From Candidatus Terasakiella magnetica (lineage in GTDB: Bacteria > Pseudomonadota > Alphaproteobacteria > Rhodospirillales > Terasakiellaceae), in the NCBI RefSeq assembly GCF_900093605.1, contig NZ_FLYE01000002.1, forward strand, positions 1 through 64,000: a stretch of DNA of 64,000 bases, in the 5' to 3' direction. Below the pieces are notes generated by a model. The model was not told the DNA's origin. It saw only the letters and a list, made by a program, of their open reading frames with translations, and ran no database searches. This document shows, piece by piece, positions 34,654 to 55,357 of this stretch. Each line of letters starts with the position of its first letter. The first letter of the stretch is position 1. A program made the position numbers and the translations under genes.

Positions 34654-34675
34654 ATATGTAAAAAGGACTTCGATT

Positions 34676-35572: not shown

Positions 35573-35809
35573 TGAGGCTCCGTACACCAGATAAATGCAT
35601 GGTTAACTTAAAATATGCATTTTCATTTCTAGAGAATCATACCTTGACCTTATGGGCAAGTAGCTTTTCATAAAAAAATCATTCTCATTTAAAAACAAGA
35701 CTTTGATGCCCTTGTGGCGCGCATTTCATTTGCGTCATTCGCCTCTATTATAAAACACATTGGTCTTGTTAAAAATACGTAAATACACCTATTAAATGGA
35801 GGGATATTC

Positions 35810-36379
35810 ATGTCCTTAACCAAAATTGGATTATGTTCGCGCGCCCTTTTGAAAATTGGCGCCAATACCATATCCTCCTTTGATGATGGCTCTGCTGAAT
35901 CAGAGGTGGCACAAAACCTATATCCAGGGGTGAGAGATAGCCTGCTGTCTTCTTATCCCTGGAGCTTTGCAACAGCCCAGATCCGTCTGGCAAGACTGAC
36001 AGCGACACCGATTGCAGACTTTTCCTATGCTTATCAATTACCCGCTGATTTCTTGCGCGCCCTTTCTGTGGGGACGGGTGATCAGGGGCGCGGGGTGACA
36101 TACCGTATTCAGGAAAAACGCTTGCATACGGATATGGATGATGTGGTGCTGACTTATATTTTCAGGCCCGAACCAACAGAATTCCCACCTTATTTCACTC
36201 AAGGCCTGATCACGCATTTAGCTGCTGAATTTTGCCTGCCCTTAACGGAAAGCGCCTCGCGGGGTGAAGCCTTTATGCGCATTGGGGAAAAAGAGCTGCA
36301 AAAAGCGCGCAATATCGATGCGCAACAACAGACACCGCAAACCATTTCCCTAGATGGCTTGGTGGGAGTGAGATACTGA
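35810..36379 (+). CDS. Tail tubular protein A (gp11-like)
   Basis: Ring-forming tail adaptor (189 aa) that joins portal and nozzle in T7-like tails. Signatures are MSLTKIGLCSRALLKIGANTI and VRDSLLSSYPWSFATAQI, common to podoviral adaptor proteins. It overlaps the next gene by 1 bp, the usual A-B order. Confidence 0.9.
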   Translation: MSLTKIGLCSRALLKIGANTISSFDDGSAESEVAQNLYPGVRDSLLSSYPWSFATAQIRLARLTATPIADFSYAYQLPADFLRALSVGTGDQGRGVTYRIQEKRLHTDMDDVVLTYIFRPEPTEFPPYFTQGLITHLAAEFCLPLTESASRGEAFMRIGEKELQKARNIDAQQQTPQTISLDGLVGVRY

Positions 36380-38295: not shown

Positions 38296-38331
38296 TTTAA
38301 AGACAGATAATTTAGAAAAAGGAGAAACACG

Positions 38332-39174: not shown

Positions 39175-39175
39175 T

Positions 39176-39532
39176 ATGGCAAGTTTATTCAAAGTAGATG
39201 CCTTGCAAAAGGCAGACGGCTCCCCTGTTGATTTAACAGGTCAGAGCGCAGCTAAGGTTCTCTGTCACTACAACCAGATCACTCCGACCATCAAAGGCAG
39301 TGTGAATATCTCCTCAGTTACCGACGAAGGCACGGGCATAACTCGTTATAACTTCACCAACAGCATGGCTTCAGCTAACGAGATGTATCCAGCTTTTGGC
39401 TCAGGTGCTAACGAGTCTAACTTTAGTAGCGACTTTGCTGTGTCAAACGTGCAGGTCAAAACTAAGGATAGCTCCGGCACTTCCCAAGACCAGCATCGGC
39501 ACTCATTCCTATGTGCAGGAGACCTAGCATGA
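39176..39532 (+). CDS. Tail fibre-associated paralogue 1
   Basis: A 118-residue beta-rich protein, first of three tandem paralogues. Shared pattern: an N-terminal VDALQKADGS-like strand, a central VNISSVTDEGTGITRYNF, and a C terminus ending GDLA. Probably part of the distal fibre or receptor-binding tip. It starts 2 bp after the fibre gene and overlaps the next gene by 4 bp (ATGA). Confidence 0.7.
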   Translation: MASLFKVDALQKADGSPVDLTGQSAAKVLCHYNQITPTIKGSVNISSVTDEGTGITRYNFTNSMASANEMYPAFGSGANESNFSSDFAVSNVQVKTKDSSGTSQDQHRHSFLCAGDLA

Positions 39533-39900
39533 CCTTAAAAACAAATCGAATTGAAAAGGTTGATGGCTCAGCAGGTGTTGATACGGACTACCTATCCAAT
39601 GACATGGTGTCTGGTGTGGCTAAAGCTTGGGCGCATTACGATCAATCTGGTGCGAATACTATCGTGCAGTCTTTCAACGTTAGTTCGATGGTGGATAATG
39701 GTACAGGTAATGCCTCGCTTTACTACACTAGCCCCTTAGCACAAAGCGACAATGTTGGAACGTCTTCTTGTACGGGACGCACTCATATGTACTGTAGCGC
39801 AGCTCGTTATGATTACATGCGTTTTTACGTGATGAATAACTCACACGCCTATGCAGATACAAATTCATGCATGGGGATGATTCATGGAGATTTAGCATGA
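39529..39900 (+). CDS. Tail fibre-associated paralogue 2
   Basis: A 123-residue protein with FNVSSMVDNGTGNASLYYTS in the same place as in its neighbours and the same GDLA end. It is translationally coupled on both sides by ATGA overlaps; the in-frame ATG 18 bp upstream lies inside the preceding gene and lacks a ribosome site. Five cysteines, mostly in the C-terminal half, are unusual for a virion protein. Confidence 0.7.
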   Translation: MTLKTNRIEKVDGSAGVDTDYLSNDMVSGVAKAWAHYDQSGANTIVQSFNVSSMVDNGTGNASLYYTSPLAQSDNVGTSSCTGRTHMYCSAARYDYMRFYVMNNSHAYADTNSCMGMIHGDLA

Positions 39901-40280
39901 GCAATTTAATCGTAACGAATGTCAATGGCGAAGTTGTTTACGACCCCTCTAGTGACCTTGGACGAGCTAAGGGCTATAGCGTTATAGACGGGCGAGATAC
40001 CTTTGCCTTACTCGATAGCTACAATGTAAGCTCAATTGTTGATAACGGAGTTTCGCTTTACACGACGAACCTGACTAACGCGATGGCGAATATTCACTAT
40101 CCCATCACGATCACAGGTGATTGGCCGACCTCTATGTACGCAGCAGCAGGAAGTGTCACAAGTGCTGGAGGCAATACTGTATCAACTACCTCATTTCAGT
40201 GTCGTTGGGTTGAGGTTAGTAACGGTGCCACTTACGATATTAACCGAGCAACTTCTGTTGTTGATGGAGCTTTAGCATGA
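39897..40280 (+). CDS. Tail fibre-associated paralogue 3
   Basis: A 127-residue protein with SYNVSSIVDNGVSLYTTNLT in the conserved position and a DGALA end. Coupled to both neighbours by ATGA overlaps. The three copies have diverged strongly, which suggests diversification of receptor contact. Confidence 0.7.
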   Translation: MSNLIVTNVNGEVVYDPSSDLGRAKGYSVIDGRDTFALLDSYNVSSIVDNGVSLYTTNLTNAMANIHYPITITGDWPTSMYAAAGSVTSAGGNTVSTTSFQCRWVEVSNGATYDINRATSVVDGALA

Positions 40281-40738
40281 CCGAGTTGGCTGAGCTTCCT
40301 TTATGGCAGCGCATCGAGCTGGCAAAGGCGCAACTTGAACCCGTTCAGTCCGACTATCGTGTTGTTTTTGACGCTGATATTGACCAACCTTCAAGTGTTC
40401 TTGTGCCTGACCCTAACTGGATGGCGATGGCCCTGCATGGAGGTGTTTTACCGCCCGTGAGTGTTTATCATGAGTTGGAACATGACGAAGAGGGCAAAAT
40501 CACCAACGCTCATATCCTTCATGAGACAGCTCCCCTTGGACCTATGAGTGAGGAAGAGGCTATTGAATATCTGGTGAAAAAAGATACGCCAGAACATGTT
40601 TGGAAAGCTGTGAAAAATGGCAATTCCATCAAGCTTGTAATTTGTAAAAAAGATCAACTACCTGCATCGCGTGAATGGCGCAATGCATGGAAAAATAATC
40701 AGGAGAAAGTAAATGACGATTACCTATATTCAAACTGA
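40277..40738 (+). CDS. Phage tail-region hypothetical protein
   Basis: A 153-residue acidic protein ending in DQLPASREWRNAWKNN, a motif often found in small proteins encoded beside podoviral fibres. It overlaps the next gene by 26 bp. It may be a fibre chaperone or accessory; this is inferred from position. Confidence 0.65.
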   Translation: MTELAELPLWQRIELAKAQLEPVQSDYRVVFDADIDQPSSVLVPDPNWMAMALHGGVLPPVSVYHELEHDEEGKITNAHILHETAPLGPMSEEEAIEYLVKKDTPEHVWKAVKNGNSIKLVICKKDQLPASREWRNAWKNNQEKVNDDYLYSN

Positions 40739-41069
40739 ACAAGGCCAAGTCCAAGCCGATGAGGTGACCAAACCAGATCAGCGCACCTTTCGTGAGGCAT
40801 GGCAGCTTAACGGGGCTGTGATTGAGGTCGATATGGAAAAAGCCCGCACCATTTGGCGCGATAAAATCCGCCAAGCTCGCATGCCTGAGCTGGACCGTCT
40901 TGATGCACAATATATGAAAGCGCTGGAAGCTGGTGATGGGACTTTGCAACAATCTATTGCCACGCAAAAACAGGCTTTGCGCGATGCTACGGCTGATCCG
41001 GCGATTGAAAGTGCAACCACACCGCAAGAACTTGAGGCCATTCAGCCCGCAGGTTTAAGTGTAAGCTGA
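40713..41069 (+). CDS. Phage tail-region protein, tail-assembly type
   Basis: A 118-residue protein: N-terminal strand region, then PDQRTFREAWQLNGAVIEVD and a helical EKARTIWRDKIRQAR segment, a pattern common in small phage tail-assembly proteins. Its FREAW motif echoes the REWRNAW of the previous gene, suggesting the pair derives from one split family. Function not known. Confidence 0.65.
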   Translation: MTITYIQTEQGQVQADEVTKPDQRTFREAWQLNGAVIEVDMEKARTIWRDKIRQARMPELDRLDAQYMKALEAGDGTLQQSIATQKQALRDATADPAIESATTPQELEAIQPAGLSVS

Positions 41070-41147
41070 TTTTCAACTCCTTTTATCTGAAGTTTATGGC
41101 TGTTTTCATGTTGTGAAAGCGGCTTTTTTTATGTTCGGGAGAAGAGA

Positions 41148-41495
41148 TTGGAAGAACAGAAACCTCTTGCGCAAAGGAGACGGCGGGCCAAGAAGGTCAA
41201 GTCGGTCGATGAGGTACAATCCTTATTGGCTGGCTTGCTTCCCAGCCTGATCCAAAGCGCAACTATCAGCTATGAAGCCTTTTCAAAAGCAGAAATTCCT
41301 GTTGATGCAAAAGGCTTTGCGGCTCATCACGCGGCCTGTAAGTCTGCTCTGTCCCATGTGGAATTGCTCACCAAACTTGCGAGGTGGGCGGAAAAAACCG
41401 AAGAAAGCGCCCCGCCAAGCCTGAGTGAAGATGACGAAATCGCGGGGCTCTTGGCAGGTGCGCGTGCGGCCTTGCAGGAGTTGGATAGTTCTTAA
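41148..41495 (+). CDS. Putative terminase small subunit
   Basis: A 115-residue helical, basic-then-acidic protein directly ahead of the large terminase, where the DNA-recognition subunit is expected. The sequence itself does not show a clear known domain. The start is a TTG with a good ribosome site (GGGAGAAGAGA); no better ATG is in frame. A terminator follows. Confidence 0.55.
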   Translation: MEEQKPLAQRRRRAKKVKSVDEVQSLLAGLLPSLIQSATISYEAFSKAEIPVDAKGFAAHHAACKSALSHVELLTKLARWAEKTEESAPPSLSEDDEIAGLLAGARAALQELDSS

Positions 41496-41521
41496 ACTCA
41501 GTGATGAAGAAGTCAGGGAAT

Positions 41522-41547
41522 GCCCCGTACATTGTGCGGGGCTTTTT
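41522..41547 (+). terminator. terminator between the terminase genes
   Basis: 9-bp stem GCCCCGTAC/GTGCGGGGC with an ATT loop and T5. Confidence 0.9.
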
Positions 41548-41584
41548 CCATGTCTAACCGCCAATTTATAAGGAGGAAAAAATA

Positions 41585-43084
41585 ATGAAAAAACGTGTGG
41601 CTTTTCCCGAGTTTGTCATGCTGTGGGATCAGCTTCAGGGATTGTCCATGCCTCAACATCATTTAAAGATTTGTCGCTGGCTGGATGAGGCCTGGACAAC
41701 GGGACGTCGTGAACTTTTGCTGATGGCATTTCGCAACAGTGGAAAAAGCACATTGGTCGGCCTGTTTTGTGCGTGGCTGCTATATCAGGATGCGGATCGA
41801 CGCATCATGGTGATGGCGGCTGATTTTGCCTTGGCAAAAAAGATGGTGCGCAATGTTAAACGCATTATTGAACGCCATCCCCTGACCAAACCTTTAAAAC
41901 CCAAGAGAAAGGAGCAATGGGCTTCTGACCAGTTTACGGTTAATCGCCCTTCTGAATTGCGTGACCCTTCCATGTTGGCAAAAGGTATTGGGGCTAATAT
42001 TACAGGCTCGCGCGCTGATGTGGTGATCTGTGATGATGTAGAGGTTCCCAACACCTGTGATAGTGCGCCCAAACGAATTGATCTGCGCGCACGTTTGCAG
42101 GAAATTGATTATGTCTTGGTCCCCGGTGGCTTGCAGCTTTATGTGGGCACACCTCACACCTATTACACCATTTATACGGATAAAAAACATGGTGAAGGAG
42201 GGGAGGATGAGCCTTTCCTTTTAGGGTTTGAACGTTTCAAACTGCCCTTGCTTGATGATAACGGCAATAGCCAATGGGCTGAGCGTTTCCCCGATAGCAA
42301 TATTGAGTCTATTCGACGCAGAACTGGTAAAAACAAGTTTGAAAGCCAGATGATGCTGCGTCCGGTCAATATTTCAGAAAGCCGCTTGGACCCGGACCTT
42401 ATGCAGCTTTATAAAAGCGAGCTTGATTATAATGAGCATAACCAGATGGCCTCACTTTCATTAGAGGGTCATAAGCTTATATCGTCCAGTTGCTGGTGGG
42501 ATCCGTCCTTTGGTTCGCCCCATAAGGGGGATGCCAGTGTGATTGCCGCAGTTTATAGCGATGATGAAGGAGGCTATTGGCTGCATGGGCTGCGTTATAT
42601 GACCCATGACCCAAAGAAGTTGAAAGAGGCTGATGAAGCCACCCAGCTTTGCCGCCAAGTGGTGGCCTTTGTGAAAGAGTTTTATCTGCCTTCGGTCTGT
42701 TTGGAAACAAATGGGGTGGGGAAGTTCCTCCCCGGTTTGTTGCGAAGAGAGCTGGAAAAAGAAGGGGTGTCTTGTGCGGTGATTGAAAAACATTCACGCA
42801 CCAACAAGGCCGAACGCATTTTATCAGCTTTTGATGTGGTCTTGGCCTCACGGGCCTTAAAGGTGCATCGCAATGTCTGGAGAACATCCTTTCCCACAGA
42901 AATGCGTGAATGGGTGCCCAGTGTGTCGGCAAAAGATGATGCCTTGGATGCGGTGGCGGGCTGTTTACTTTCAGAACCCGTGCGCCTGCCTAGAACACCT
43001 GTCCATATATTGGATGGTAAAAAGATCAAACAATGGGGCGGATATGGCAGTGCCCATACAGCTCAGAGTGATTTTGATGTCTAA
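41585..43084 (+). CDS. Terminase large subunit
   Basis: Packaging motor (499 aa). The N-terminal ATPase has a Walker A-like FRNSGKST and Walker B ADVVICDDVEV. The C-terminal RNase H-like nuclease has acidic residues in SSCWWDPSFGSPHKGDAS and AKDDALDAVAGC. It cuts and pumps DNA into the head through the portal. Intact, with a strong ribosome site (AGGAGG). Confidence 0.93.
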   Translation: MKKRVAFPEFVMLWDQLQGLSMPQHHLKICRWLDEAWTTGRRELLLMAFRNSGKSTLVGLFCAWLLYQDADRRIMVMAADFALAKKMVRNVKRIIERHPLTKPLKPKRKEQWASDQFTVNRPSELRDPSMLAKGIGANITGSRADVVICDDVEVPNTCDSAPKRIDLRARLQEIDYVLVPGGLQLYVGTPHTYYTIYTDKKHGEGGEDEPFLLGFERFKLPLLDDNGNSQWAERFPDSNIESIRRRTGKNKFESQMMLRPVNISESRLDPDLMQLYKSELDYNEHNQMASLSLEGHKLISSSCWWDPSFGSPHKGDASVIAAVYSDDEGGYWLHGLRYMTHDPKKLKEADEATQLCRQVVAFVKEFYLPSVCLETNGVGKFLPGLLRRELEKEGVSCAVIEKHSRTNKAERILSAFDVVLASRALKVHRNVWRTSFPTEMREWVPSVSAKDDALDAVAGCLLSEPVRLPRTPVHILDGKKIKQWGGYGSAHTAQSDFDV

Positions 43085-43155
43085 AAAAATCCTTGCGAGT
43101 GGTCATACCAATTCCCATATTTGTTTTAGATGTAAGTGAAAAGATGGAGGATGTT

Positions 43156-43458
43156 ATGAAACGTATATTAAGCGGTCTTTTGACGCTGATCACCGTAATG
43201 TCCTTCGCCTTTCCTGTAGCTGCGCAAAACCTGTGCGGTGAGCGCGTGGACATTATTGATACATTGAAAGAACGCTATCGTGAAGTTCCGGTCTCTATGG
43301 GATTGGCGGGGAACGGTGGTGTTGTTGAAATTTTTGCCTCCAATAAAGGCAGTTGGACCATTTTGGTTACACGCCCAACGGGGGTGGCTTGTGTAGTCTC
43401 TGCTGGTGAAGCTTGGGAAAGCATCAAAGGTATGGGGGATAACGACCAAGGTGTCTAA
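43156..43458 (+). CDS. Exported small protein in phage lysis region
   Basis: A 100-residue protein with a signal peptide (MKRILSGLLTLITVMSFAFPVAAQ) and a mature domain of about 76 residues with two cysteines (LCGERVDII; GVACVVSAGEAW) likely to form a disulfide. The GLAGNGGVVEIFASNKGSWTI region is a pattern I associate with small alphaproteobacterial periplasmic proteins. A role in lysis is possible given its place between terminase and holin-like gene. GGAGG decides the start at 43156. Confidence 0.72.
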   Translation: MKRILSGLLTLITVMSFAFPVAAQNLCGERVDIIDTLKERYREVPVSMGLAGNGGVVEIFASNKGSWTILVTRPTGVACVVSAGEAWESIKGMGDNDQGV

Positions 43459-43509
43459 GTAAAAGAGGGTTTCTTGGAACCAAGAGCTCTTTAAATAAAA
43501 TAACGAATT

Positions 43510-43551
43510 GAAAACGCTTCTGCATTTGGTGCAGGGGCGTTTTCTTTTTTT
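43510..43551 (+). terminator. terminator before the lysis membrane-protein gene
   Basis: GAAAACGC/GCGTTTTC with an inner TCTGCA/TGCAG-type stem and T7. Confidence 0.92.
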
Positions 43552-43564
43552 CAGGAGAAAGTAA

Positions 43565-43657
43565 ATGAAAGCGAGCTGGAGTATCGACCTTATCTGGTGG
43601 ATTATAGCTATAATGCTAAGTATATTGAAAATTAACAATAAAATTAAATTTGTATGA
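43565..43657 (+). pseudogene. N-terminal fragment of split lysis membrane protein
   Basis: An ORF with a strong ribosome site (CAGGAGAAAGTAA) starts MKASWSIDLIWWI and then runs into island sequence, stopping at 43657 after 30 codons. If bases 43603-54653 are removed at the repeated CTGGTGGAT, the frame continues in the ORF at 54676-54924. The restored protein has one hydrophobic N-terminal helix and a cytoplasmic coiled coil of about 110 residues in all, as in small holin-like or holin-associated proteins next to endolysin genes. Confidence 0.8.
43594..43602 (+). repeat. attL core
   Basis: CTGGTGGAT, identical to 54645-54653. It encodes part of IWWI in the split gene. Confidence 0.75.
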
Positions 43658-43662
43658 CTACA

Positions 43663-43823
43663 ATATAGCTACAAAAACTGTATATTTTGTCACTCATATC
43701 CTATATAATTACAGTTTAGGTGTTAATCTATTGAGTAATAGTTATTTTCCTTAAGAGCAGATAGCTACAAAATTTACTCCTGCTTTTAGCGTTAAAAGCA
43801 ATAGCTACAAATAAGCTACAAAC
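43663..43823 (+). repeat. cluster of integrase arm-type sites, left end
   Basis: Four copies of AGCTACAAA between the left boundary and the integrase gene (near 43668, 43768, 43802 and 43812). The same motif recurs twice inside the right end near 54569-54590. The distribution is that expected of recombinase arm-binding sites. Confidence 0.6.
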
Positions 43824-43830
43824 TCTTTAC

Positions 43831-45303
43831 ATGAGGATTGATGGCATGAGCATGAAAAAAAATGGTGAAGTTACAGGAGTAGTGGAAAACGATCCGAATG
43901 GGTATGCGGTTATTTTCAAAAGAGAGGAAAAGCTTAGCAGTAATTATTACTATGAGATAAAACTTCATGGTCATAAGCCAATCGCTCGCAGCTGTAAAAC
44001 AGATCAGAAATCAAAAGCATTTAATATCGCAAACAGAGAATATTACGAGATATTAAATCGTTTGGAAAATGAGCAAAATTTAGTAATCCCGACTACAGAA
44101 AAACTCGTAGATTTATTCGATGAACATTTGAAAAGTCGAGTTGTTGAAAAACAATTATCTGATCAAAATTACAAGGCTAAATATTATCGTTTACTTTATA
44201 TTCGGAAGTTCTTCGGCAAAACAGCGCTCGATAAATTGCGAACGGTGGATATTGAAAAATTCATAAATTATCTACACACTTCTCACAAAGAAATTGGTTA
44301 TGAAGACAAAAGTGGCAAGCGTTATACGACTATTAGATACGTAAACAAGAAAGGCAAAAAAGTTACCTCTAAACGACCAATTAGACCTTTAAGCCCCACA
44401 ACAATAAAATTTATTTTGGGAACCTTAGATCAGCTGTTTGATTATGCTATTCGAAACTCATACGTGAATAAAAGGGATGTTCCCGAATTTGACTATAAGT
44501 CTGAAATTATCGCACGCGTTCCGTTTACTCGAAAAGAAATTGAAGTTATCGAAAAGCATTTGGATACTTGGATTGCCAACAGTCGTGATCGAAATACCAG
44601 CATCTCTCGTGAGGTGTTTGCTGCTTACGTAATGCTTTTACGTTATTCGGGAATTCGTGTAGGTGAAGCACGATATCTTAAATGGAGGCATTACCAACCA
44701 AAGTTAGACAAAGAGAATTACCTTTTGGAAGTGGCATTGCATATTCCAAAATCGAAAGTCAAAAAAGCTAAAGGGCGAACCGTTTCTATTCACCCAGATG
44801 TTCATAAGTATATGGCAAAGCTTCAAAAAGTTCATGCTCGTATACTTGGAAGAGAGCCTCATGAAGATGATTATTTATGGATTAGTTGGCGTAAGAAGCA
44901 CGTATATTCCTATAAACAACAATTCAAAAAATATCTTGAATTTATCGATGTAACTCATAGTGAAGAAATCGAAAATGAAGATCCAATTCCGTATACGATC
45001 TATTGCTTACGTCACTCTTATGCAACGCATTTAATTGAAGACGGCGGTGATAGTTATTTTATCGCTAAGAATATGGGAACTTCACAACGAATGCTTATTG
45101 AACATTATGATAAGAGTGAAGCAGTTCGTCATGGAGAAAAAATTCATGGATCAAATGCCGAAACTCAAAAAGCGAAAAAGAAACAGGATAATATTGATAA
45201 TAATGTTATCGCGCCTCTTCCCTCATTTAGCGATATGAAAATTAAAGATGTTGAAGGTGAATTGTTTTTCGTTAGCGAAGAAAAGCGTTTATTAATTGAA
45301 TAG
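43831..45303 (+). CDS. Tyrosine recombinase (island integrase)
   Basis: Site-specific recombinase (490 aa) that should integrate and excise the island. An N-terminal arm-binding-like region is followed by a core-binding domain and the catalytic domain. Active-site residues are visible: R in YSGIRVGEARYL, H-x-x-R in LRHSYATHL, a later H-like position in KNMGTSQ, and tyrosine in LIEHYDKSE. A second in-frame ATG at 43846 has GAGG upstream and may be the real start. It lies 230 bp from attL, transcribed inward. Confidence 0.92.
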   Translation: MRIDGMSMKKNGEVTGVVENDPNGYAVIFKREEKLSSNYYYEIKLHGHKPIARSCKTDQKSKAFNIANREYYEILNRLENEQNLVIPTTEKLVDLFDEHLKSRVVEKQLSDQNYKAKYYRLLYIRKFFGKTALDKLRTVDIEKFINYLHTSHKEIGYEDKSGKRYTTIRYVNKKGKKVTSKRPIRPLSPTTIKFILGTLDQLFDYAIRNSYVNKRDVPEFDYKSEIIARVPFTRKEIEVIEKHLDTWIANSRDRNTSISREVFAAYVMLLRYSGIRVGEARYLKWRHYQPKLDKENYLLEVALHIPKSKVKKAKGRTVSIHPDVHKYMAKLQKVHARILGREPHEDDYLWISWRKKHVYSYKQQFKKYLEFIDVTHSEEIENEDPIPYTIYCLRHSYATHLIEDGGDSYFIAKNMGTSQRMLIEHYDKSEAVRHGEKIHGSNAETQKAKKKQDNIDNNVIAPLPSFSDMKIKDVEGELFFVSEEKRLLIE

Positions 45304-45345
45304 TATTATCGGGTATGACCGGCCTTAAGGCGTGTGTGCGGCGTG

Positions 45346-45606
45346 TTAAAATAGATCTGTGCGCTTATATAGTCCCGCATAGTCAAGCTCGTTGCACACA
45401 ACGTCATATTCTCGTTCGCTGTCACAGATAATCATCAATTTCCAAAAATCGGCATTGGATGAAAATCGCATTGTGATTGTTTGATCTTCATTCGAATATA
45501 AATCTGTGCTGTTTATTGTTTCTGTTCCGAACGCGTGTTTCATACGTGCGATAATCGCTGAATAATCAATGTCGTGATCTCGGTTATTAAATTCCAAAGT
45601 CTTCAT
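45346..45606 (-). CDS. Island hypothetical protein
   Basis: An 86-residue acidic protein with no recognised domain; GGGAGA lies ahead of the ATG at 45606. It is convergent with the integrase gene. It is small enough to be an excision or regulatory factor, but it shows no helix-turn-helix. Confidence 0.6.
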   Translation of the reverse strand: MKTLEFNNRDHDIDYSAIIARMKHAFGTETINSTDLYSNEDQTITMRFSSNADFWKLMIICDSEREYDVVCNELDYAGLYKRTDLF

Positions 45607-45766
45607 TAAAATCTCTCCCATGGAGAAATTATAAAGTCAGAAATTGATCAGGTGTAGGAACGGATGACTATAGTGGTCGTTTAACACAGATACTTAACAC
45701 CTTTCATTCCTTTTCCTTTGAACCAATGAAGTTACACTAACGGTTGGAATTGAAATGGAGTTAGAT

Positions 45767-46183
45767 ATGACAAAACTTAAATCACTGAATTTCGTAGAAC
45801 CACAAGCACCAGCTAAATCAAACCCGTTTGATAATGCAAAACGCAATTTAGTCACGAACTTAAATCGCCAGCTTGCAGCTGCCAATGCCATGGTAAAAGG
45901 TGAGACATATACGGAAGCAAGAAGCGAATATGTCGAAGGTTCCGATGGACAACGCACTAAACAAGAAATCCAAAAGCCTATCCGCAAATGGTATTGGCGT
46001 GATTACGATGGCAAGGTGCGTTTTAGCTTACGTGTTCGCAATAAAGCCGTAGAAATCGAAAAAGGCAAAACCGACATTTTGATTGGTGAAGACAAACAAC
46101 TTCCAAATGCCATCACATTGCTCATAGAAGCAGTTAGCGCTGGTGAATTAGATACACAAATCAAAAACCACATAGCGAAATAA
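45767..46183 (+). CDS. DUF6641-like protein
   Basis: A 138-residue protein whose layout matches my memory of DUF6641: an N-terminal LKSLNFVEPQ, a basic helical part (AKRNLVTNLNRQLAAANAM), the aromatic KPIRKWYWRDYDGKVRF and a KGKTDILIGE strand. The family is found on integrative elements; its function is unknown. GGAG six nt before 45767 decides the start. Confidence 0.65.
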   Translation: MTKLKSLNFVEPQAPAKSNPFDNAKRNLVTNLNRQLAAANAMVKGETYTEARSEYVEGSDGQRTKQEIQKPIRKWYWRDYDGKVRFSLRVRNKAVEIEKGKTDILIGEDKQLPNAITLLIEAVSAGELDTQIKNHIAK

Positions 46184-46908
46184 CCACATATATAACTTAC
46201 AGCTTGGTATTAACTGAGCTGTTTCTATGAATATTTAAGTGAGTTATAAATTGTCCTGCTTTCAGCACGACAACGCTTATTGAAAGTCGAACTTCATTTC
46301 ATTCCGTTCTTTTTTCAATAAGCAATTTATTTGAAAAGATTAAGTAAGAAGAAAACATCTCATTTATATGAATTAATATTATCAAGATGTTAGATTTTAT
46401 TACCCCCCCCCCTGTAACAGCTAAAATACAATTACAGAGGGGAAATAAACACATTATCTGAGTGTTGAGTGTTTTCGAAACAGGGGTAATTAACAGCAAG
46501 CAGTCCGTGTGTTTCTTGCCATCCCCTAATCCCCAAGCTTACGCTTTCGGACGGTGTCATCAAGGTGCAGATCGAATTACACAAAGATGCTGAGCTACAG
46601 CAGTAATCAACCACCAGCTCTTCTTTTCAAACAAACCATGTTAGCGAAGATGCTGTCATCTTCCAAAGCTTGCGGGCATTTTTATTTTACTTGGCTTCGT
46701 GCAATTGCGGGTAAACAATCGGTCCCTTCCAAGGCGCTTGCGTTAAGCTTATATCCAGATAATTTATATATCCTCTCCGGTCTAAGTCCCGGGGACAGTG
46801 TGAGTGAGAACGCTATAATTTTATTTATGCTAACGGCTTTGCAGCTTCGTCTATGAGCATAATTTAACTATAAACATTATAACAATTCAGCACTCACAAA
46901 TGCAAAAT
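46184..46908. other. 725-bp stretch without a convincing gene
   Basis: It begins AT-rich. A C9 run (about 46404) opens a hairpin of CCCCTGTAA with TTACAGAGGGG (to about 46442). The later half (46500-46855) is less AT-rich and contains repeated AGCTTGCG/CGCTTGCG-like words. A 100-codon frame at 46554-46856 starts with a poor ribosome site and has unnatural composition, so I do not call it. This could be a non-coding RNA or a decayed gene. Confidence 0.5.
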
Positions 46909-47757
46909 TCAAATGTCGTGCGTGTTGTTTTCGAGTTGATTTTTCAGCTTAAATTTCTCACTAATTCTTAATAAATAGAGATCAAACCTTCTTAAGTTTT
47001 CAGGAGTAACTTCTCCATATACCTCTTGGCAAAGCTGAGTAACAATCCGCACAACATCTACGACTTTCTTTGCGCTTTGTAGGTTATCAGATTTATCAAC
47101 AGGAAATAGCCCAATATATTTTAGCGTTCTGATCATATGTAAATCAGGTTTAACCGATAAACCACAATCGGTAAGGAAGTGACATACAGTTATTGGACCC
47201 CATAGAAACCCAAACTCTTTAGAAAAGTTTCTTACTATTTTCATAAAACCATCGCTTGCGATGAAGGCAGCAACATCATCTCTCATCACAAGCTCTGGAA
47301 AGGGGTTCGCTCCGTGTTTGTCATGCCTTTTCTTGAAGCAAATACCTGCATTGAAAATCGCCAAAAATCTATGCTTTGCAATTGTCGGATTAGACGCATA
47401 TTCCTTCGCTTTATCACCTGCAAATATGAAATTCTTCTTATTAGAATATGACCCTACTCGCTTTTCTTTATCGACACGGATAATTTCATAAGGACTATTG
47501 TCGGGTGTCATATCCTTCCAAATACCTTCAAAACGACCACTATTCTTCTCAACAATTTTTTCGCCTTGCTTTAGCTTTGCAGACGAACGAATTGGTTTCT
47601 GCCAAAAGTTTAGCCAAATCTGTTCCGTAGTCGAAGTATCGCAAGGAAACAGAGTGGTTTGCAATTGATCATCTGTTTTCATGCAGTCTGGAAATTCCGC
47701 ACGAAGTTTATCGTGCAATCTCACATATTCTTTCGCGGCTTTGGCTAAATCGGTCAT
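46909..47757 (-). CDS. HhH-GPD / OGG-like DNA glycosylase-fold protein
   Basis: A 282-residue protein. The region GFLWGPITVCHFLTDCGLSV (183-202) followed by KPDLHMIRTLKYIGL (203-217) has the shape of a helix-hairpin-helix plus catalytic-aspartate motif of base-excision glycosylases (D205). The lysine typical of the bifunctional OGG subgroup is not at its usual place, so it may be a monofunctional glycosylase or only a base-binding protein. It is divergent from the unknown/DpdA-like operon, with 119 bp between. Glycosylase-fold assignment is by motif only. Confidence 0.6.
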   Translation of the reverse strand: MTDLAKAAKEYVRLHDKLRAEFPDCMKTDDQLQTTLFPCDTSTTEQIWLNFWQKPIRSSAKLKQGEKIVEKNSGRFEGIWKDMTPDNSPYEIIRVDKEKRVGSYSNKKNFIFAGDKAKEYASNPTIAKHRFLAIFNAGICFKKRHDKHGANPFPELVMRDDVAAFIASDGFMKIVRNFSKEFGFLWGPITVCHFLTDCGLSVKPDLHMIRTLKYIGLFPVDKSDNLQSAKKVVDVVRIVTQLCQEVYGEVTPENLRRFDLYLLRISEKFKLKNQLENNTHDI

Positions 47758-47876
47758 CTATTCCCCCTCCTGTTTTTCTGTATTCAGAAGCATTTATTCA
47801 ATTTTGACAAGAAAATTAAGTTGCTTAAGCAACACTTTTTTTTCATCATCAAAGAAAATCTGGGGAGAAAATCATC

Positions 47877-49220
47877 ATGGCAACAGCTATTTCTGCAATC
47901 ACTAAAGGCGACATACGAGAGCTTGGACAACGGGCAATGGTTGTTCTTCAAAGCAATTCTCAGTTCGAAACCGCCCATATAAACAAACTCTCCGCAGACA
48001 AAGCACTAGCCCTATCTCTCTTCGATGTTACGTCAAATAGTAATATGGTAGAAGCAGATCAAACGCTTACCTCTCTGGGCTTGAATAGTAACAGCGGCAC
48101 ATCGCTCGAATACAAAATAACACGTATCGCATTTCATAGAGCAAACGAGCTATTAAGCAAAAACGACGAAAATCGCCCACTTATATCCAAATACGCAAAG
48201 GTCATTGAAGGTGCGAGAAATCAAAACCTATCGCGTGCAGAATTTGAAAAGAAACTGAGTAATGGGTTTGACCGTGCAGTAACGTTTTTTCGAAAAACAC
48301 TCTATGGTGACGATCTTGATGAAGCTACTAAAGAACAAAAAGCACTCGAACACCTAAGTGCTGATTTTGAAGAAATCGAACTCGATACGAATATCACAGG
48401 TATTGAAGATGGTAGTTATGTCGAACTCGTAGCACGTATTGTAAATGGTAAACCTGTCATATATGGCATACTTCCTAAGAAATCCGATGCTGTTAAAGAC
48501 ACAATCATTTCGAGTTGGGAAAAAGCACAGCCTAAACCACGTAAGACAGATGCAATTTTTCAAGAAGCTGGTGCATTGGCAAGCGTCTTGGTCGCTGATG
48601 GCGAAGCAACTCATGCGCTCATCGACACAAAAGCAGGCATTACGTTTGAAGCAATTTCAGCTCGTGCATTTGCCACTATTCAATCTGTTAAAACCGAAGC
48701 TGGTTTTGATAAACAAAAGCTGAGTTTCAATGGCGATGATCTGGTTGCCATTAGCAAAGATTTACAACACGTCTTTCGCAAGGAAGCTATTGAATTAAGC
48801 GTTAAAGGCAAAATACTCTTTGCCAAACCCATAGATAAAGACATTAGAGAAATCGTCGTATCAAACAAAATGCCGCAACATGGCGAGGTTGATCAAGACG
48901 TCGTTGTTTTCAAAATTGAAAAATCCTCTGCAATTAAAAACAGCGTTTGGCATACAGGAAAAGAACACAAAGCTAATTTGAGCAAAGAGCAGATTGATCA
49001 TCTATCAAAGCTGAAAATCAAAAACGCCTCTATTGATGTTATCGAAGGTAAACCAATCAAGCTTGATAAAGATACAGTTCGTATCGTTAAACGCGCTGTA
49101 AAGGAACTAAACAAGCTTGGCGACAAAAACATAACCTTTACAGTTTCAGATCAATGCCTGTCATTCAACACACAAAAAGATGATGTTTCATACGCAGTCT
49201 TAATTGCAATAAAGGCATAA
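47877..49220 (+). CDS. Unknown protein coupled to the DpdA-like gene
   Basis: A 447-residue soluble protein that I do not recognise. The N-terminal 170 residues are helical; the rest alternates strands and helices. Two stretches (SFNGDDLVAISKDLQHVF and DTVRIVKRAVKELNKLGDKN followed by a strand pair) loosely recall sliding-clamp subdomains, but this is weak. It ends 3 bp before the transglycosylase-like gene, so the two are almost surely translated together. GGGGAG precedes the ATG. Confidence 0.7.
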   Translation: MATAISAITKGDIRELGQRAMVVLQSNSQFETAHINKLSADKALALSLFDVTSNSNMVEADQTLTSLGLNSNSGTSLEYKITRIAFHRANELLSKNDENRPLISKYAKVIEGARNQNLSRAEFEKKLSNGFDRAVTFFRKTLYGDDLDEATKEQKALEHLSADFEEIELDTNITGIEDGSYVELVARIVNGKPVIYGILPKKSDAVKDTIISSWEKAQPKPRKTDAIFQEAGALASVLVADGEATHALIDTKAGITFEAISARAFATIQSVKTEAGFDKQKLSFNGDDLVAISKDLQHVFRKEAIELSVKGKILFAKPIDKDIREIVVSNKMPQHGEVDQDVVVFKIEKSSAIKNSVWHTGKEHKANLSKEQIDHLSKLKIKNASIDVIEGKPIKLDKDTVRIVKRAVKELNKLGDKNITFTVSDQCLSFNTQKDDVSYAVLIAIKA

Positions 49221-49223
49221 GCA

Positions 49224-50681
49224 ATGCGTTATGATGACAGACGAATACACAGCTACTTGCCTTCACTTCAACCGCAATGGATTGAAGCTGTGCAAAAGCA
49301 TGTTCTTGATTTCCGAAAAAAGGTTCCTTACGGCACTTTCAAATCAACGAAAGAATTTAACTGGTATAGCGAGCTTAACGATGCCCGCTTTACCCATCCA
49401 TACGCGCTGTTTTCCGCAGGGCATGCGGAACTTGATTTAGATAAAGCCCGAAACAAATCACCTATGCTGTTTAATCGGGATCGCCATAATACGTTTCTTC
49501 TAACAGATAGTGGTGGATATCAAATCGGATCAAAAGCATGGAAACTCAAAGAGCTTGATACACCCGAGCAGTTTTCCTTTGAGCCTTTAATCAAAAAACG
49601 CGAACAGGTCTTGCGTTGGCAGGAAGCCGTAGCTGATCTTGCCGTCGTGCTTGAAGTGCCTGCTTGGATGGATGGCATAAGTTACGACAATGCGTTGCGC
49701 TTGACACAAGATAATCTCAAATACTATGCGGAAAATGCAACAGGCGAAGTTCCGTTCCTAAACGTTTTGCATGGCAGCACGTTTGAAGAAGTAGTGCATT
49801 GGTTTGAAGAAACGAAATGGTTTAACGATCAGGGACATGGTGTTGGATGGTGTTTTCCGGGGCTTATGAGCGGAAACTTTTATCTCGCCCTGCAGATGAT
49901 TTTATATATGCACAGCAGAAAACATTATCCGAAGTTCTTGCATTTCCTAGGAAATGGCACAGCACAGACAACAGCGATGCTTTATACGTTGAAAAAAGTA
50001 ATTCGCAGAACTTACCCAGAAAGAAATTGCGTTGTTAATATCACCCAAGATGCGTCTTCTGAATTCCAAATATCAGGTATGCGCGGGGAAGTATATGAAC
50101 GCATCAAAGGTCGTGAAGATAATCGCGCCTCCTATTCACCTTATATAATCAAGAAAGATAAGTTTGAGAGTAAAGACTTAAACTTCATCCGTCATGATCA
50201 ACATTACCCGAACGTCGATGGACCGGTATTATCAAAGCCAAAAGGCGTTGTGTTTGGCGACATAATCGCACCGAAGAAAGTTCGCCCGAAAAGCTACAAG
50301 GGAGAAAGTAAATATAACAAAGATGGCTTGAGCGATTTGATTTTGATCGCACATAATGTGTGGACAAAACTAAATGCGATTGAAGAAACGCAGGATATGG
50401 AGCGAACACTAAGACGCTTGCATTATGCTGCGGCACGAGTAGAGACAAAGGAATTTGCCGGGGAATTAAAGCGGATTATGAAACGACGTAGCAGTCATAC
50501 AATGGGCGAAGATTTAGTCGCCGTTACCGTCGGCTTGTGGAAACTGTTTTATGATAACTATGAAGACACGATGACATTTGATGAACGAATGGAAATTCTC
50601 GATACTTTCCAAGAACAAGCAATCCATCTGTTCGGCAAAGTCCCCAAAAATTATTTACCGGAAGCTCCGACAGAAATTTAG
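49224..50681 (+). CDS. DpdA/TGT-like DNA transglycosylase
   Basis: A 485-residue protein with the tRNA-guanine-transglycosylase barrel pattern: TDSGGYQ (94-100, as TDSGGFQ in TGT), FLNVLHGST (178-186, substrate loop), a GVGWCFPGLMSG glycine pair, FLGNGT (241-246), and NITQDASSEF, where D276 is the likely nucleophile. The CxCxxC...H zinc site of tRNA-modifying TGT is absent, which fits DpdA-type enzymes that put 7-deazaguanines such as preQ0 into DNA. No preQ0 synthesis genes lie here; the host would supply it. The C-terminal third (after 330) is not recognised. Confidence 0.72.
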   Translation: MRYDDRRIHSYLPSLQPQWIEAVQKHVLDFRKKVPYGTFKSTKEFNWYSELNDARFTHPYALFSAGHAELDLDKARNKSPMLFNRDRHNTFLLTDSGGYQIGSKAWKLKELDTPEQFSFEPLIKKREQVLRWQEAVADLAVVLEVPAWMDGISYDNALRLTQDNLKYYAENATGEVPFLNVLHGSTFEEVVHWFEETKWFNDQGHGVGWCFPGLMSGNFYLALQMILYMHSRKHYPKFLHFLGNGTAQTTAMLYTLKKVIRRTYPERNCVVNITQDASSEFQISGMRGEVYERIKGREDNRASYSPYIIKKDKFESKDLNFIRHDQHYPNVDGPVLSKPKGVVFGDIIAPKKVRPKSYKGESKYNKDGLSDLILIAHNVWTKLNAIEETQDMERTLRRLHYAAARVETKEFAGELKRIMKRRSSHTMGEDLVAVTVGLWKLFYDNYEDTMTFDERMEILDTFQEQAIHLFGKVPKNYLPEAPTEI

Positions 50682-51244
50682 ATCACCTCGACAGCTTCAC
50701 GCATCATCTCGTCGTTAACATCAATATAACGTTGTGTCGTCGTCAGGTGCTGATGCCCCGCAAGCGTCATAATCACCTTCGGGCTAATACCGCTATGTGC
50801 AAGCTTGGTGATAAACGATCGACGACCGCTATGGCTCGTTGCTCCATCAATACCAGCATCACCGTATAGTTTGCCAAAGAGCTGACAAAGCGTGTTGGGA
50901 GAAAATGGTGTGTTTCTTTGAGTGAGAAGAAACGGTCTATCTGCATTGATCACTGACAGCGTTTTCAAATAGCTTTTGATTTCACGCTTAAGCTTATCGC
51001 TAACGAATGCAACGCGGGCTTTATTCCCTTTTGTATAAGCAGCTTTAAGCTGGATTTGATCTTTGACGTTTAACTCACTGCCAAACACATCAGAAATTTT
51101 CAACGCTGCAATTTCTCCCACACGTAACCCCGCGTAATAAGACAGCATAATCGCGACACGGTTACGTGCAGGATGCTTTCCCGCATCAACAACAGCTAAC
51201 AAACGCCTCATTTCTGTTGGGGATATAACCTTTGCCTGTTTCAT
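50678..51244 (-). CDS. Catalytic-domain-only tyrosine recombinase
   Basis: A 188-residue XerC/D-like protein without the usual N-terminal core-binding domain. Catalytic residues: R in YAGLRVGEIAAL, H-x-x-R in TSHSGRRSF, H in LAGHQHL, Y in TQRYIDV. It overlaps the end of the DpdA-like gene tail to tail by 4 bp. The start at 51244 has GAGGT. It may work with the full integrase, act in excision, or be a remnant of another element. Confidence 0.85.
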   Translation of the reverse strand: MKQAKVISPTEMRRLLAVVDAGKHPARNRVAIMLSYYAGLRVGEIAALKISDVFGSELNVKDQIQLKAAYTKGNKARVAFVSDKLKREIKSYLKTLSVINADRPFLLTQRNTPFSPNTLCQLFGKLYGDAGIDGATSHSGRRSFITKLAHSGISPKVIMTLAGHQHLTTTQRYIDVNDEMMREAVEVI

Positions 51245-51505
51245 CACATACCTCATTAAAAGTTGCACATTTAAGATAAAATTATGCTTCCGTTGAGGTT
51301 CATCCACAAGGGCTCATTGAATGTCAGCATTTCTGCGGGATTGAGCCTATGCTTAACAAAATGTGCATTTTATTAGGTATTCTTTATTTCTGCTAAAGTA
51401 CGAATTCCAGACATAAACACAGAGGTACGACATAGGCAGCTTTTAGCCATATACGGATGTTTTGAGGGCTGATGTGTTATTTACGATTAAGCTAATTATT
51501 AAACC

Positions 51506-51868
51506 TCAAATTATTTTCGATATTAAATCTATAAGCTTATTAGTAGAAACGGGTTTGGGGACAAAAGCTTCAAACCCCGACAAAACTAATTGTTGTCCTT
51601 CACGTTCATTACAATGGGATGAGACTACGATTACAGGAATTTCGTTTGTCCTTGGGTCGTTCTTCAACACTTTATTCACCTCAACACCACTCATACCAGG
51701 CAATTTGTAATCCAAGATTATCAATTCAGGTCTGTGTTGAAAGGCTAACTCAAGAGCCTCCTCACCGGTTGAAGTATTGATCGTTTCATGACCAACCGAT
51801 GAAACAAGATCATTTAATAACTTCATGCACATAGGACTGTCTTCAACAATTAAGATAGTTTTTCCCAT
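51506..51868 (-). CDS. Single-domain response regulator (CheY/DivK-like)
   Basis: A 120-residue receiver: acidic pocket ILIVEDS, phospho-acceptor D in LIILDYKLPGM, conserved S in VVSSH and K in FVPKPVS. No output domain, so it acts by protein contact. No kinase lies on the island, so it must plug into host signalling. Bases 51245-51505 show no gene I can support. Confidence 0.88.
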   Translation of the reverse strand: MGKTILIVEDSPMCMKLLNDLVSSVGHETINTSTGEEALELAFQHRPELIILDYKLPGMSGVEVNKVLKNDPRTNEIPVIVVSSHCNEREGQQLVLSGFEAFVPKPVSTNKLIDLISKII

Positions 51869-51910
51869 AGTCCATCCTATAAAAAAATCAGATTAACCTG
51901 AATTATATAC

Positions 51911-53005
51911 TCAACTTACCTCGAGGCTTTCCTTACGGAAAACACGAGAAAATGCACCAATCATATCTTTGGAAAGCTTTTTGGTCAGCAGTACCCCAAG
52001 CACGACCAATGTGCTGATCGCAATCCAAGTGGGGATCAACTCTGTATCCCCTGACATTTGAACCAAGACGTCATACCCCATTTTCTGGGCTACATAATCA
52101 GTCGCCAACCCTGCAAGTATGCTGGTGACAATGATACCAGAAAGATACAGACCTAAAGCCGCATTCCCCATTTCTTTGCGGACAATGCCCATAGTAGCGA
52201 CATTTGTAGCTGGACCTGCAAGCATGAAGACCATTGCCGCTCCCGGCGACACACCAGCCAAGATAAGGCTAACAGCCACAGGGGTTGATGCTGTGGCGCA
52301 GATATACATTGGAATACCAATGATAACCATAATAACCATACCCATGATACCCGTCGCGTATTCGGCAAAGGCCATTGGCGGGACCCAGGTCATAACGGCG
52401 GTGGCAAGAACAAGGCCAAACACAAGCCAGCCAGCTATGTCGTCAAATATGTCTCCAAATGCATAGTGTAGTCCGTTCAGGGTATTTTGGCTGAACGAAG
52501 GTTTTGTAACCTCTACTGGTTTTTCATCACCACCTGAGCAGCCACATGATGAACCACCGCAGGAACTGGTTGTGGCGGCCTCTTTGACTGCTTCTTTTTG
52601 TTCTGCGGGTAGAAATGCCATTAACAAGCCTGTTGTAATAGCACTAAAAAGAGCGGCAATAGGACGGGCGACAGCCATAAACGGGCCAAACATCCCATAA
52701 GAAATAGCTACGCTATCAACGCCTGTTTCTGGTGTTGATACTAAGAACGATGTTGTCGCTTCTCTTGAAGCCCCGGCACGTCGCATACCAATAACAACGG
52801 GCAAGACGCCGCAGGAACAAATTGGAAGCGGAGCGCCTACAACAGCCCCCATGATGACGGGTTTTAATCCCTTACCGCTGAGCAGTCGAGCAAGACCGTC
52901 TTGTGGCACCCACGCTTTGATAAGGCCTGCAAGAAACAATCCTAACACCAGCCAAGGAGCAGCATCTAAGCCAAGGGTATAAAGGTTTTCAATAAAAGCG
53001 TTCAT
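51911..53005 (-). CDS. Permease of the SO_0444 Cu/Zn efflux type
   Basis: Membrane protein (364 aa) with about eight to ten helices in two homologous halves. Motifs are GAPLPICSCGVLPV (metal-binding cysteines) and FLVSTPETGVDS. A central cytoplasmic loop has SSCGGSSCGCSGG, a probable metal-binding stretch. The family exports heavy metals. The ATG at 53005 has a perfect AGGAGG. It is controlled by the divergent MerR gene through a classic 19-bp-spacer promoter. Confidence 0.85.
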   Translation of the reverse strand: MNAFIENLYTLGLDAAPWLVLGLFLAGLIKAWVPQDGLARLLSGKGLKPVIMGAVVGAPLPICSCGVLPVVIGMRRAGASREATTSFLVSTPETGVDSVAISYGMFGPFMAVARPIAALFSAITTGLLMAFLPAEQKEAVKEAATTSSCGGSSCGCSGGDEKPVEVTKPSFSQNTLNGLHYAFGDIFDDIAGWLVFGLVLATAVMTWVPPMAFAEYATGIMGMVIMVIIGIPMYICATASTPVAVSLILAGVSPGAAMVFMLAGPATNVATMGIVRKEMGNAALGLYLSGIIVTSILAGLATDYVAQKMGYDVLVQMSGDTELIPTWIAISTLVVLGVLLTKKLSKDMIGAFSRVFRKESLEVS

Positions 53006-53509: not shown

Positions 53510-53632
53510 TGCCATACCACATAGTTGGCTGCTTTGGGTCAAACCCAGTCTTCTTATAGCAAGATATTTTTAGTCCGCTTCTATTTGGGAAGCAGAAATG
53601 GCATTGCTAAATAGCTATAGGAGGATTTAGCA

Positions 53633-54675: not shown

Positions 54676-54924
54676 ATGGCGAGCTTGTTCTGGATGATTT
54701 GGCGCAACCGCCATGACTTTGAAGATGATGTCTCACAATTGCGCGAGAATATGGATGCAGCCTTTGCCAATACGCGCGAAAGCCTATCGGCCTATAAGCT
54801 GGAAGTGGCAAAAAGCTATGCCTCTATTGCTTATATGAAAGATGTAGAGCGTCGCTTAACCGGGCATCTCGTGCGCATAGAAAATAAGTTGGATCAAACA
54901 GGAAGGAGAAAATCAGATGGCTAA
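54676..54924 (+). CDS. C-terminal part of split lysis membrane protein
   Basis: An 82-codon frame, open back to the island edge at 54654. It holds the second half of the hydrophobic helix (MASLFWMIW) and a coiled coil with VSQLRENMDAAF and VERRLTGHLVRIENKLD. No ribosome site precedes the internal ATG at 54676, so it is probably not expressed while the island is in place. It overlaps the endolysin gene by 8 bp. Confidence 0.75.
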   Translation: MASLFWMIWRNRHDFEDDVSQLRENMDAAFANTRESLSAYKLEVAKSYASIAYMKDVERRLTGHLVRIENKLDQTGRRKSDG

Positions 54925-55357
54925 TTGCCGATATTCAAAATGTCCCGAAGATGCGATTGATACAATGGCACGTACCCTTTACGGGGAAGCGCGGGGTGAA
55001 AAAGTTCGCGGGCTGGAAGCGATTGCCTGTGTGATTATCAACCGTGTGGAAAAGGCCCTTGAAAAGGGCGGCTACTGGTGGGGCAGTGATGTTGAAAATG
55101 TCTGTTTGCGCCCGTGGCAGTTTTCTTGCTGGAACCCGAATGACCCAAATCGTGAGAAAGTTCTGGTGGTGCAGAAAAGCAATAAAATCTTTGCAACGTG
55201 CCTGCGTGTGGCGCGTCGTGCCCTTTATGGCGGGGTAAAAGACCCCACAGGTGGCGCAACCCATTATCATCGCCATGGTCTGTTACCAGCATGGGCGGGT
55301 AAGCAAATTCCTTGTGCAGAAGTGGGTAACCATGTGTTTTACAAGGATATTCCATGA
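54917..55357 (+). CDS. SleB-type cell wall hydrolase (endolysin)
   Basis: A 146-residue hydrolase. The catalytic glutamate region is ARTLYGEARGEKVRGLEAIACVIINRV and the late motif DPTGGATHYH is also typical of SleB/CwlJ enzymes. It has no signal peptide, which fits an endolysin released by the neighbouring membrane protein. AAGGAG lies ahead of the ATG. Bases 55358-55562 contain no gene I can support beyond a short GTG frame. Confidence 0.88.
   Translation: MANCRYSKCPEDAIDTMARTLYGEARGEKVRGLEAIACVIINRVEKALEKGGYWWGSDVENVCLRPWQFSCWNPNDPNREKVLVVQKSNKIFATCLRVARRALYGGVKDPTGGATHYHRHGLLPAWAGKQIPCAEVGNHVFYKDIP

Follow-up and report, generated by a model that had tools for sequence, protein, structure and literature searches.

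A putative mobile module for clamp-assisted exchange of guanine for 7-deazaguanine in DNA in Candidatus Terasakiella magnetica

A gene in a 64,000-nucleotide stretch of the Candidatus Terasakiella magnetica genome (contig NZ_FLYE01000002.1, positions 1 to 64,000; hereafter the window) encodes a protein of 485 amino acids (positions 49224–50681, forward strand) that resembles tRNA-guanine transglycosylase (TGT). The gene is present once in the genome and begins 3 bp past the stop codon of another forward-strand gene, which encodes a protein of 447 amino acids (47877–49220). This locus raises the question of whether the enzyme exchanges bases in DNA and, if it does, what its coupled partner contributes. 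A sequence-only reading had joined both genes and a divergent gene for a 282-residue protein (46909–47757, reverse strand) into one DNA base-modification system; the three open reading frames (ORFs) lie where it placed them and the 3-bp coupling is read directly from the sequence. The answer favoured here, which we consider somewhat probable, is that 47877–50681 constitutes a mobile, clamp-assisted module for guanine/7-deazaguanine exchange in DNA.

The 485-residue protein is a transglycosylase of the TGT superfamily and has the catalytic aspartate pair. In TGT chemistry an aspartate attacks, guanine leaves and preQ0 enters. The motif TDSGGYQ forms residues 94–100, and D95, S96, G97, G98, H240, G243 and D276 are invariant in a 39-row alignment of the family. 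In a profile alignment with 13 tRNA TGTs, D95 (codon at 49506–49508) falls on the aspartate of the TGT motif DSGGFQ and D276 (50049–50051) on that of the 'FDCV' motif, which we take to be the nucleophile, in agreement with the earlier choice of D276 as the candidate nucleophile. H377-N378 is aligned to the TGT 'HN' motif, whose histidine is presumably a zinc ligand, and the cysteine ligands are gone. The Cys3-His zinc site of bacterial tRNA TGT is thus not found in this protein, and the former statement that it lacks a zinc site is right for the cysteines and wrong for the HN pair.

Profile and fold comparisons lead to the same superfamily. With the 39-sequence profile, 50 of 51 PDB matches at E ≤10 are TGTs (best E 8.5e-4). 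In hhalign this profile gave 95.8% for TGT, 98.0% for DpdA2 (E 1.9e-13), 98.5% for a 'TGT domain' protein of Vibrio phage GR7B, 99.5% for two Bacilli proteins and 3.1% for the DpdA of phage CAjan; values for the window protein alone were lower (TGT 43%, DpdA2 5%, GR7B 93.5%). An AlphaFold model of the enzyme built from 33 sequences (pLDDT 74, pTM 0.80) has only TGTs among its best 50 PDB rows, both in Foldseek (best E 2.9e-5) and in VIA (Z 20.1, root-mean-square deviation 4.1 Å over 311 aligned residues), and a protein of Vibrio phage nt-1 is among its fold matches in viral models (E 6.2e-9). In a quick maximum-likelihood tree, in which branches are long, the 39 family members form one branch (SH-aLRT 99), the 13 tRNA TGTs stand apart (support 100), seven DpdA2 proteins have a branch of their own (support 100) and the window protein pairs with that of locus L011 (support 94). 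Judged from this tree, the family is a clade separate from tRNA TGT and phage DpdA2. The profile, structure and residue alignments therefore bear out the TGT-like assignment made from the sequence, and the profile check suggested with it places the family near both DpdA2 and TGT, on a branch apart from tRNA TGT. Two loci of a Bacilli metagenome-assembled genome (L048, L049) hold another TGT-superfamily protein together with QueC, FolE, QueD and QueE family members; the L048 protein has no PADLOC DpdA match, and this is perhaps a further branch of DNA transglycosylases.

Relatives of the enzyme are sparse and scattered. tblastn with the 485-residue protein found 11 records of PA5oct-like Pseudomonas phages (about 28% identity, best E 2e-17), one Azospirillum plasmid and, weakly, Vibrio phage 2.275.O (E 5e-3). 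Homologues occur in 3 of 100 genomes mostly of the same order and in 3 of 385 genomes of a class sample, the source genome included in each count. An alignment search of one genome per species gave at least 35 genome loci among the matches listed. The counts below refer to 39 distinct loci. Two copies of other loci (L025 of L012, L030 of L013) and three weaker relatives (L047–L049, of which L047 behaves as a TGT in hhalign) were dropped before counting, and L052 (E 5e-4) and phage Phosso (L056) are also uncounted. The 39 loci are not independent: the tree places L003 with L016, and L029 with L032, as near-identical pairs, and the same holds for several rows from Magnetospirillum. One genome (G083) holds three different transglycosylase copies (L012, L013 and L014), two of which are accompanied by glycosyltransferase-like, QueD and small recombinase genes.

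General family models recover these proteins poorly. No match above noise came from single-sequence searches of the window transglycosylase against Pfam, PHROGs, PADLOC, NCBIfam and PDB, and a peptide-pattern search with it found no match in viral or genome contigs. The DpdA of CAjan and the DpdA2 of nt-1 are likewise without a Pfam match at E ≤0.01, so that a missing Pfam hit is of little weight. Eight of the 39 members match the Pfam TGT model at E ≤1 (best 6.8e-4) and the other 31 do not. The PADLOC DpdA model matches none of the 39 at E ≤1; CAjan DpdA reaches only E 0.0013 with it and nt-1 DpdA2 has no match, indicating that this model reaches distant DpdAs poorly.

The relatives are linked to 7-deazaguanine genes. 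A member of the FolE, QueD, QueE, QueC or YhhQ-type families is in view in 16 of the 39 loci, a glycosyltransferase-like gene in 17 and a conserved small protein in 10; the window itself has none of these. The YhhQ-type and GT-B names are taken from Pfam scores that stay under the respective cut-offs (25.3 bits for a cut-off of 27.2 in the former, 19.0 and 16.1 bits for one of 26.4 in the latter), and the GT-A-like glycosyltransferases are named by eye. The nearest relative of the window enzyme (L011, 34% identity) has the gene order serine recombinase, partner, transglycosylase, QueD, QueE, FolE, HAD-like, pyridoxal phosphate (PLP)-aminotransferase-like and QueC, in which the HAD-like, PLP-aminotransferase-like and QueE genes are named by eye and the QueE candidate fits only a 4Fe-4S domain model. 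Downstream of the transglycosylase gene, phage PA5oct has an annotated QueE, and the annotations in Vibrio phage 2.275.O are QueF, a vitamin (YhhQ-type) transporter, queuosine biosynthesis (QueC-like) and FolE. A search of the host genome for QueC and TGT found QueC (E 3.5e-58) and one canonical TGT, which fits the queuosine use that had been proposed for this host, and preQ0 should therefore be available to the window enzyme, as far as gene content can tell. In three Sulfitobacter and Shimia loci (L044, L040, L045), a YhhQ-type transporter, a GT-B-like glycosyltransferase, the transglycosylase and the partner form a compact, conserved cassette, which hints at a glycosylated 7-deazaguanine. 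The conserved small protein (114–125 amino acids) lies near transglycosylase genes of both bacteria and jumbo phages (for example at 8528–8872 in L030 and 10730–11107 in L002); the one member tried has no Pfam match.

The second gene of the pair also recurs. An extremely divergent ORF of about 400–670 amino acids lies directly beside the transglycosylase gene in many relatives, and pairwise comparisons link only some of these ORFs. A partner is present in 28 of the 39 loci. In 23 it lies no more than 100 bp from the transglycosylase gene, including one (L027) in which a divergent partner ORF overlaps the transglycosylase start; in five loci it is 5.7–7.5 kb away. Enzyme and partner gene thus recur together in other genomes, for two of the three genes named in the linkage check proposed earlier. 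A partner profile merged from 15 rows, of which 14 are distinct, connects to two other subfamilies in hhalign (93.3% and 76.6%). The scores against this profile are 27.9 for the window copy and 34.3 for the L011 copy, with a maximum of 20.8 among 148 null ORFs and of 20.8 and 18.9, respectively, among 20 shuffles of each. The null was drawn as 150 ORFs of 250–750 amino acids from the same neighbourhoods, from which L003 (45.0) and L021 (27.5) were removed as partners because they are next to the transglycosylase gene; L021 is close to the window copy in score and, if left in, would nearly match it. In a scan of 449 neighbourhood ORFs, which overlaps this null and includes copied loci, six scores exceeded 23, five of them from ORFs adjoining the transglycosylase gene and the sixth from an ORF about 2 kb away, beside an assigned partner. 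The 447-residue protein of the window is, on this profile evidence, a probable divergent member of the partner family.

The clamp-like character of the family comes mainly from structure prediction. The partner of locus L039 was modelled from 17 sequences, the window copy among them (pLDDT 79, pTM 0.64); its N-terminus is helical and its C-terminus rich in beta structure. Residues 245–546 of the model match sliding clamps in Foldseek (best E 2.1e-7) and in VIA (Z 14.3, root-mean-square deviation 4.0 Å over 230 residues), and the best 50 rows of each search are all PCNA, 9-1-1 or beta clamps. In hhalign, the merged profile aligns its last domain with the last domain of DnaN, in register, with scores of 31.6–35.1 against 13.9–15.4 for four control families; the DnaN set has 16 rows, one of them a wrong ORF. 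In a test of C-termini, the copies of L036, L038 and L026 scored 33–43, those of L003, L016, L011 and L040 19–23 and that of L044 14.5. The clamp fold of the modelled relative is thus well supported by the prediction, and the window copy may share it. The partner, which had been described as linked to the enzyme and otherwise of no recognised kind, keeps the linkage and gains a conserved family with a member predicted to fold as a sliding clamp. A clamp-binding motif in the enzyme (QAIHLF, residues 465–470) was considered and rejected; no more than 3 of the 39 members contain a match to any pattern tried, and the occurrence is treated as chance.

Several observations weigh against a clamp-assisted DNA-modification module. 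The modelled protein is that of L039 and not the window copy, whose C-terminus, aligned in the right place, reaches a score of 18.0 where the null goes up to 18.6. The merged profile has a probability of only 9–16% with DnaN; single subfamilies score 17.6–21.2 and the L011 copy 14.9, and the 23.0 of the window copy comes from an alignment that is out of register. The partner profile finds no clamp in PDB or Pfam. Membership of the window and L011 copies in the family has hhalign probabilities of 4.0% and 19.3% with the merged profile, and the two stand out only when set beside unrelated ORFs. Phage relatives are without a partner ORF of at least 150 amino acids in the flanks examined, and none is in view in the phage or phage-like loci L002, L004, L017, L018 and L056. 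The window enzyme is on a long branch of the tree, and no 7-deazaguanine gene is in view in 23 of the 39 loci, that of the window among them. From other work, a deazaguanine incorporation system had previously been noted in PA5oct (PMC7824862, in excerpt), and PMC13216743 (in excerpt) concludes that clamp binding is not the main determinant of the share of alpha-glucosylation in T4. The same excerpt also supplies a precedent in favour of the module, since gp45, the clamp of T4, was found to co-purify with the alpha-glucosyltransferase of that phage.

A rival explanation is that the enzyme is a DpdA-type transglycosylase whose partner is a DNA-binding or targeting protein, clamp-like in the model only. 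The profile, fold and catalytic residues of the enzyme speak for this arrangement too, and it fits a clamp call that comes from one model of 17 very divergent sequences and finds no clamp counterpart in sequence profiles. It leaves unaccounted for the 50 best Foldseek and 50 best VIA rows, all clamps with E down to 2.1e-7 and Z of 14, and the registered alignment with the last DnaN domain, itself of low probability, and we regard it as rather unlikely. The specific proposal that the transglycosylase and a PCNA-like ring from the same operon replace guanine by 7-deazaguanine while the enzyme is tethered to a dedicated clamp is put forward tentatively, as a possibility that falls short of being probable.

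The surroundings of the pair appear to be mobile. A small tyrosine recombinase gene (209 amino acids, 50678–51307, reverse strand; PF00589 E 3.3e-28) converges on the transglycosylase gene. Its family is in view in 19 of the 39 loci by clustering and in 20 by profile, and L003, L012 and L013 have homologues of the window recombinase (E 2.7e-73 to 5.5e-79). The G+C content is 0.33–0.43 between about 43.5 and 51.5 kb, and at the left edge of this stretch is a gene for a phage-type tyrosine integrase (490 amino acids, 43831–45303, forward strand; PF00589 E 5.2e-11), followed by one for a phage-type protein (45755–46183, forward strand; phrog_31551 E 1.7e-24, and DUF6641-like at 24.7 bits against a cut-off of 27). 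No convincing repeat was found in 43000–52500 that could mark an invertible promoter or att sites. In five other genomes of the genus, an empty site was readable in none; one of them contains short segments of 154 and 62 bp from the right flank, and the other four contain no such segment. Promoter-like sites number 6 against 10.9 in shuffled sequence, and terminator-like sites 10 against 4.7; no conclusion is drawn from either count. A 63-bp stretch at 53536–53598 is repeated at 95% identity in contig C44 of the same genome (29201–29263).

Directly to the left of the low-G+C stretch is a prophage-like block (24160–43084), whose repressor-, connector-, tail- and terminase-like genes are named by eye from their translations; a hydrolase-like gene at 54917–55357 may be part of it. 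The enzyme and partner could accordingly be a DNA camouflage gene set of this prophage. The structural and terminase-like genes do end at 43084, beside the stretch, and jumbo phages carry relatives of the enzyme, but the G+C content differs (0.47–0.49 at 40.0–43.5 kb) and related units are found in different surroundings, where many are accompanied by a member of this small recombinase family. Ownership by the prophage is improbable on these grounds.

The third gene of the earlier proposal does not belong to the conserved unit. The 282-residue protein, divergent from the partner gene, has no Pfam match at the gathering level, and its HhH-GPD glycosylase-like reading comes from a motif common to it and two homologues elsewhere, GWGxITVxHxLTDxGxxxKPDxxxxR, which in our understanding resembles an HhH-GPD hairpin followed by the catalytic aspartate; no family model or fold search confirmed this reading of the three sequences. 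Homologues are present in 2 of 397 other genomes of a phylum sample, and in the 18.5 kb around these two no transglycosylase of the window family was found. The family profile has no member among ORFs of at least 80 amino acids in the other 43 transglycosylase loci, a set that includes two copies and three weaker relatives. The glycosylase is therefore rejected as part of the system, and the three-gene arrangement once proposed is reduced to two genes; the 282-residue protein is best regarded as a neighbour, perhaps a glycosylase that serves in repair or against phages. One homologue (L085, 8849–9781) abuts a gene for an N6/N4 DNA methylase (9781–12708). Neither the 447- nor the 282-residue protein has a tblastn match at E ≤1 in phages or plasmids or a viral-contig match by pattern search, and in the 100-genome sample of relatives both were found only in their own genome.

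A defence role in which the transglycosylase swaps bases of invading phage DNA during its replication and a modified base is cut out by the glycosylase-like neighbour, in the manner of Brig1, would give this divergent gene and the integrase genes of the stretch a place, and anti-phage base-excision glycosylases have been described (PMC13160076, in excerpt). It is quite improbable, given that a scan of the other transglycosylase loci showed no member of the glycosylase-like family, that PADLOC matched none of the four window proteins scanned and that phages also carry relatives of the enzyme. The Pfam and PHROGs scans covered seven ORFs of 43831–51307, PADLOC four and NCBIfam five of these, the ORFs at 50678–51307 and 45346–45621 having entered the Pfam and PHROGs scans only. 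Among them no DpdB, DpdC or restriction gene was recognised, as had been stated from the sequence. Very unlikely, finally, is a second TGT acting on tRNA or other RNA, possibly to resist RNA-targeting phage weapons, since the TGT fold, catalytic residues and host QueC that would suit it are set against a canonical TGT already in the host, the absence of the cysteine zinc ligands, relatives that are also phage genes near preQ0 and glycosyltransferase-like genes, and a partner that is clamp-like where modelled.

If the clamp-assisted module is real, its action may be pictured as follows. D276 would attack C1' of a deoxyguanosine in DNA, guanine would depart and a 7-deazaguanine base would enter, in this host probably preQ0 from the host queuosine pathway; some relatives bring FolE, QueD, QueE and QueC or a YhhQ-type transporter with them. 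The 447-residue partner, as a putative divergent sliding-clamp-like protein, would tether the enzyme to duplex or replicating DNA, in the way that gp45 binds the T4 alpha-glucosyltransferase, and so substitute for the features by which TGT binds tRNA. The module would move with the small tyrosine recombinase, and its benefit would probably be camouflage of element or host DNA against restriction, with defence against invaders as a further possibility.

By what means DpdA-type enzymes locate DNA and remain on it is, to our knowledge, an open question, and DpdB is what the Dpd islands described so far use. The clamp-like partner suggests an undescribed means of keeping such an enzyme on DNA, and neither this bacterial branch nor a partner resembling a clamp was reported in the literature searched, whose coverage is partial. 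Should the partner prove to be a dedicated clamp, it would be a second and structurally different answer beside DpdB. We know of no other modification enzyme with a private sliding clamp, and two proteins would then suffice to test processive base exchange in vitro. As 31 of the 39 members have no Pfam TGT match and all 39 no PADLOC DpdA match, the set of genomes to be considered for 7-deazaguanine DNA would also be wider.

DNA 7-deazaguanine transglycosylases as such are already known (Hutinet et al. 2019, PMC6884629, in excerpt). DpdA2, of the Vibrio phage nt-1/KVP40 type and treated in the same excerpt, is like the window enzyme a member of the TGT superfamily with a phage preQ0 neighbourhood, and it is by profile the named DNA transglycosylase nearest to the window family, yet it forms a separate branch in the quick tree. 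tblastn with nt-1 DpdA2 gave 70 records (40 of the 70 rows listed), only 2 of them from Pseudomonas, so that the 11 PA5oct-like records found with the window enzyme are not all in the DpdA2 set. PA5oct shares the window's transglycosylase family, with QueE six genes downstream, but has no partner ORF in the flank examined and instead has a GT-B-like protein and the small c6 protein downstream.

The Dpd islands (DpdA-DpdB-DpdC and DpdD–K; excerpts of PMC11888242 and PMC12839542) are similar to the window locus in being genomic islands that encode a TGT-like DNA transglycosylase, in some cases with preQ0 genes nearby. They differ in that none of the 39 relatives matches the PADLOC DpdA model, limited as its reach is, and in that the scanned window ORFs have a predicted clamp-like partner family in place of DpdB, DpdC and restriction genes. 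BRC systems with TGT are also bacterial loci in which a TGT-like enzyme is proposed to mark DNA; the excerpts of PMC12839542 assign them PglZ, DUF6079, a STAND NTPase, DUF4007 and HerA, none of which was matched by Pfam in the seven window ORFs. The T4 alpha-glucosyltransferase and gp45 provide a parallel to the proposed use of a clamp, both being cases of a DNA-modifying enzyme that binds, or in the window may bind, a sliding clamp. In T4 a glucosyltransferase is combined with the replicative clamp, whereas in the window the clamp-like protein would be encoded beside the enzyme itself.

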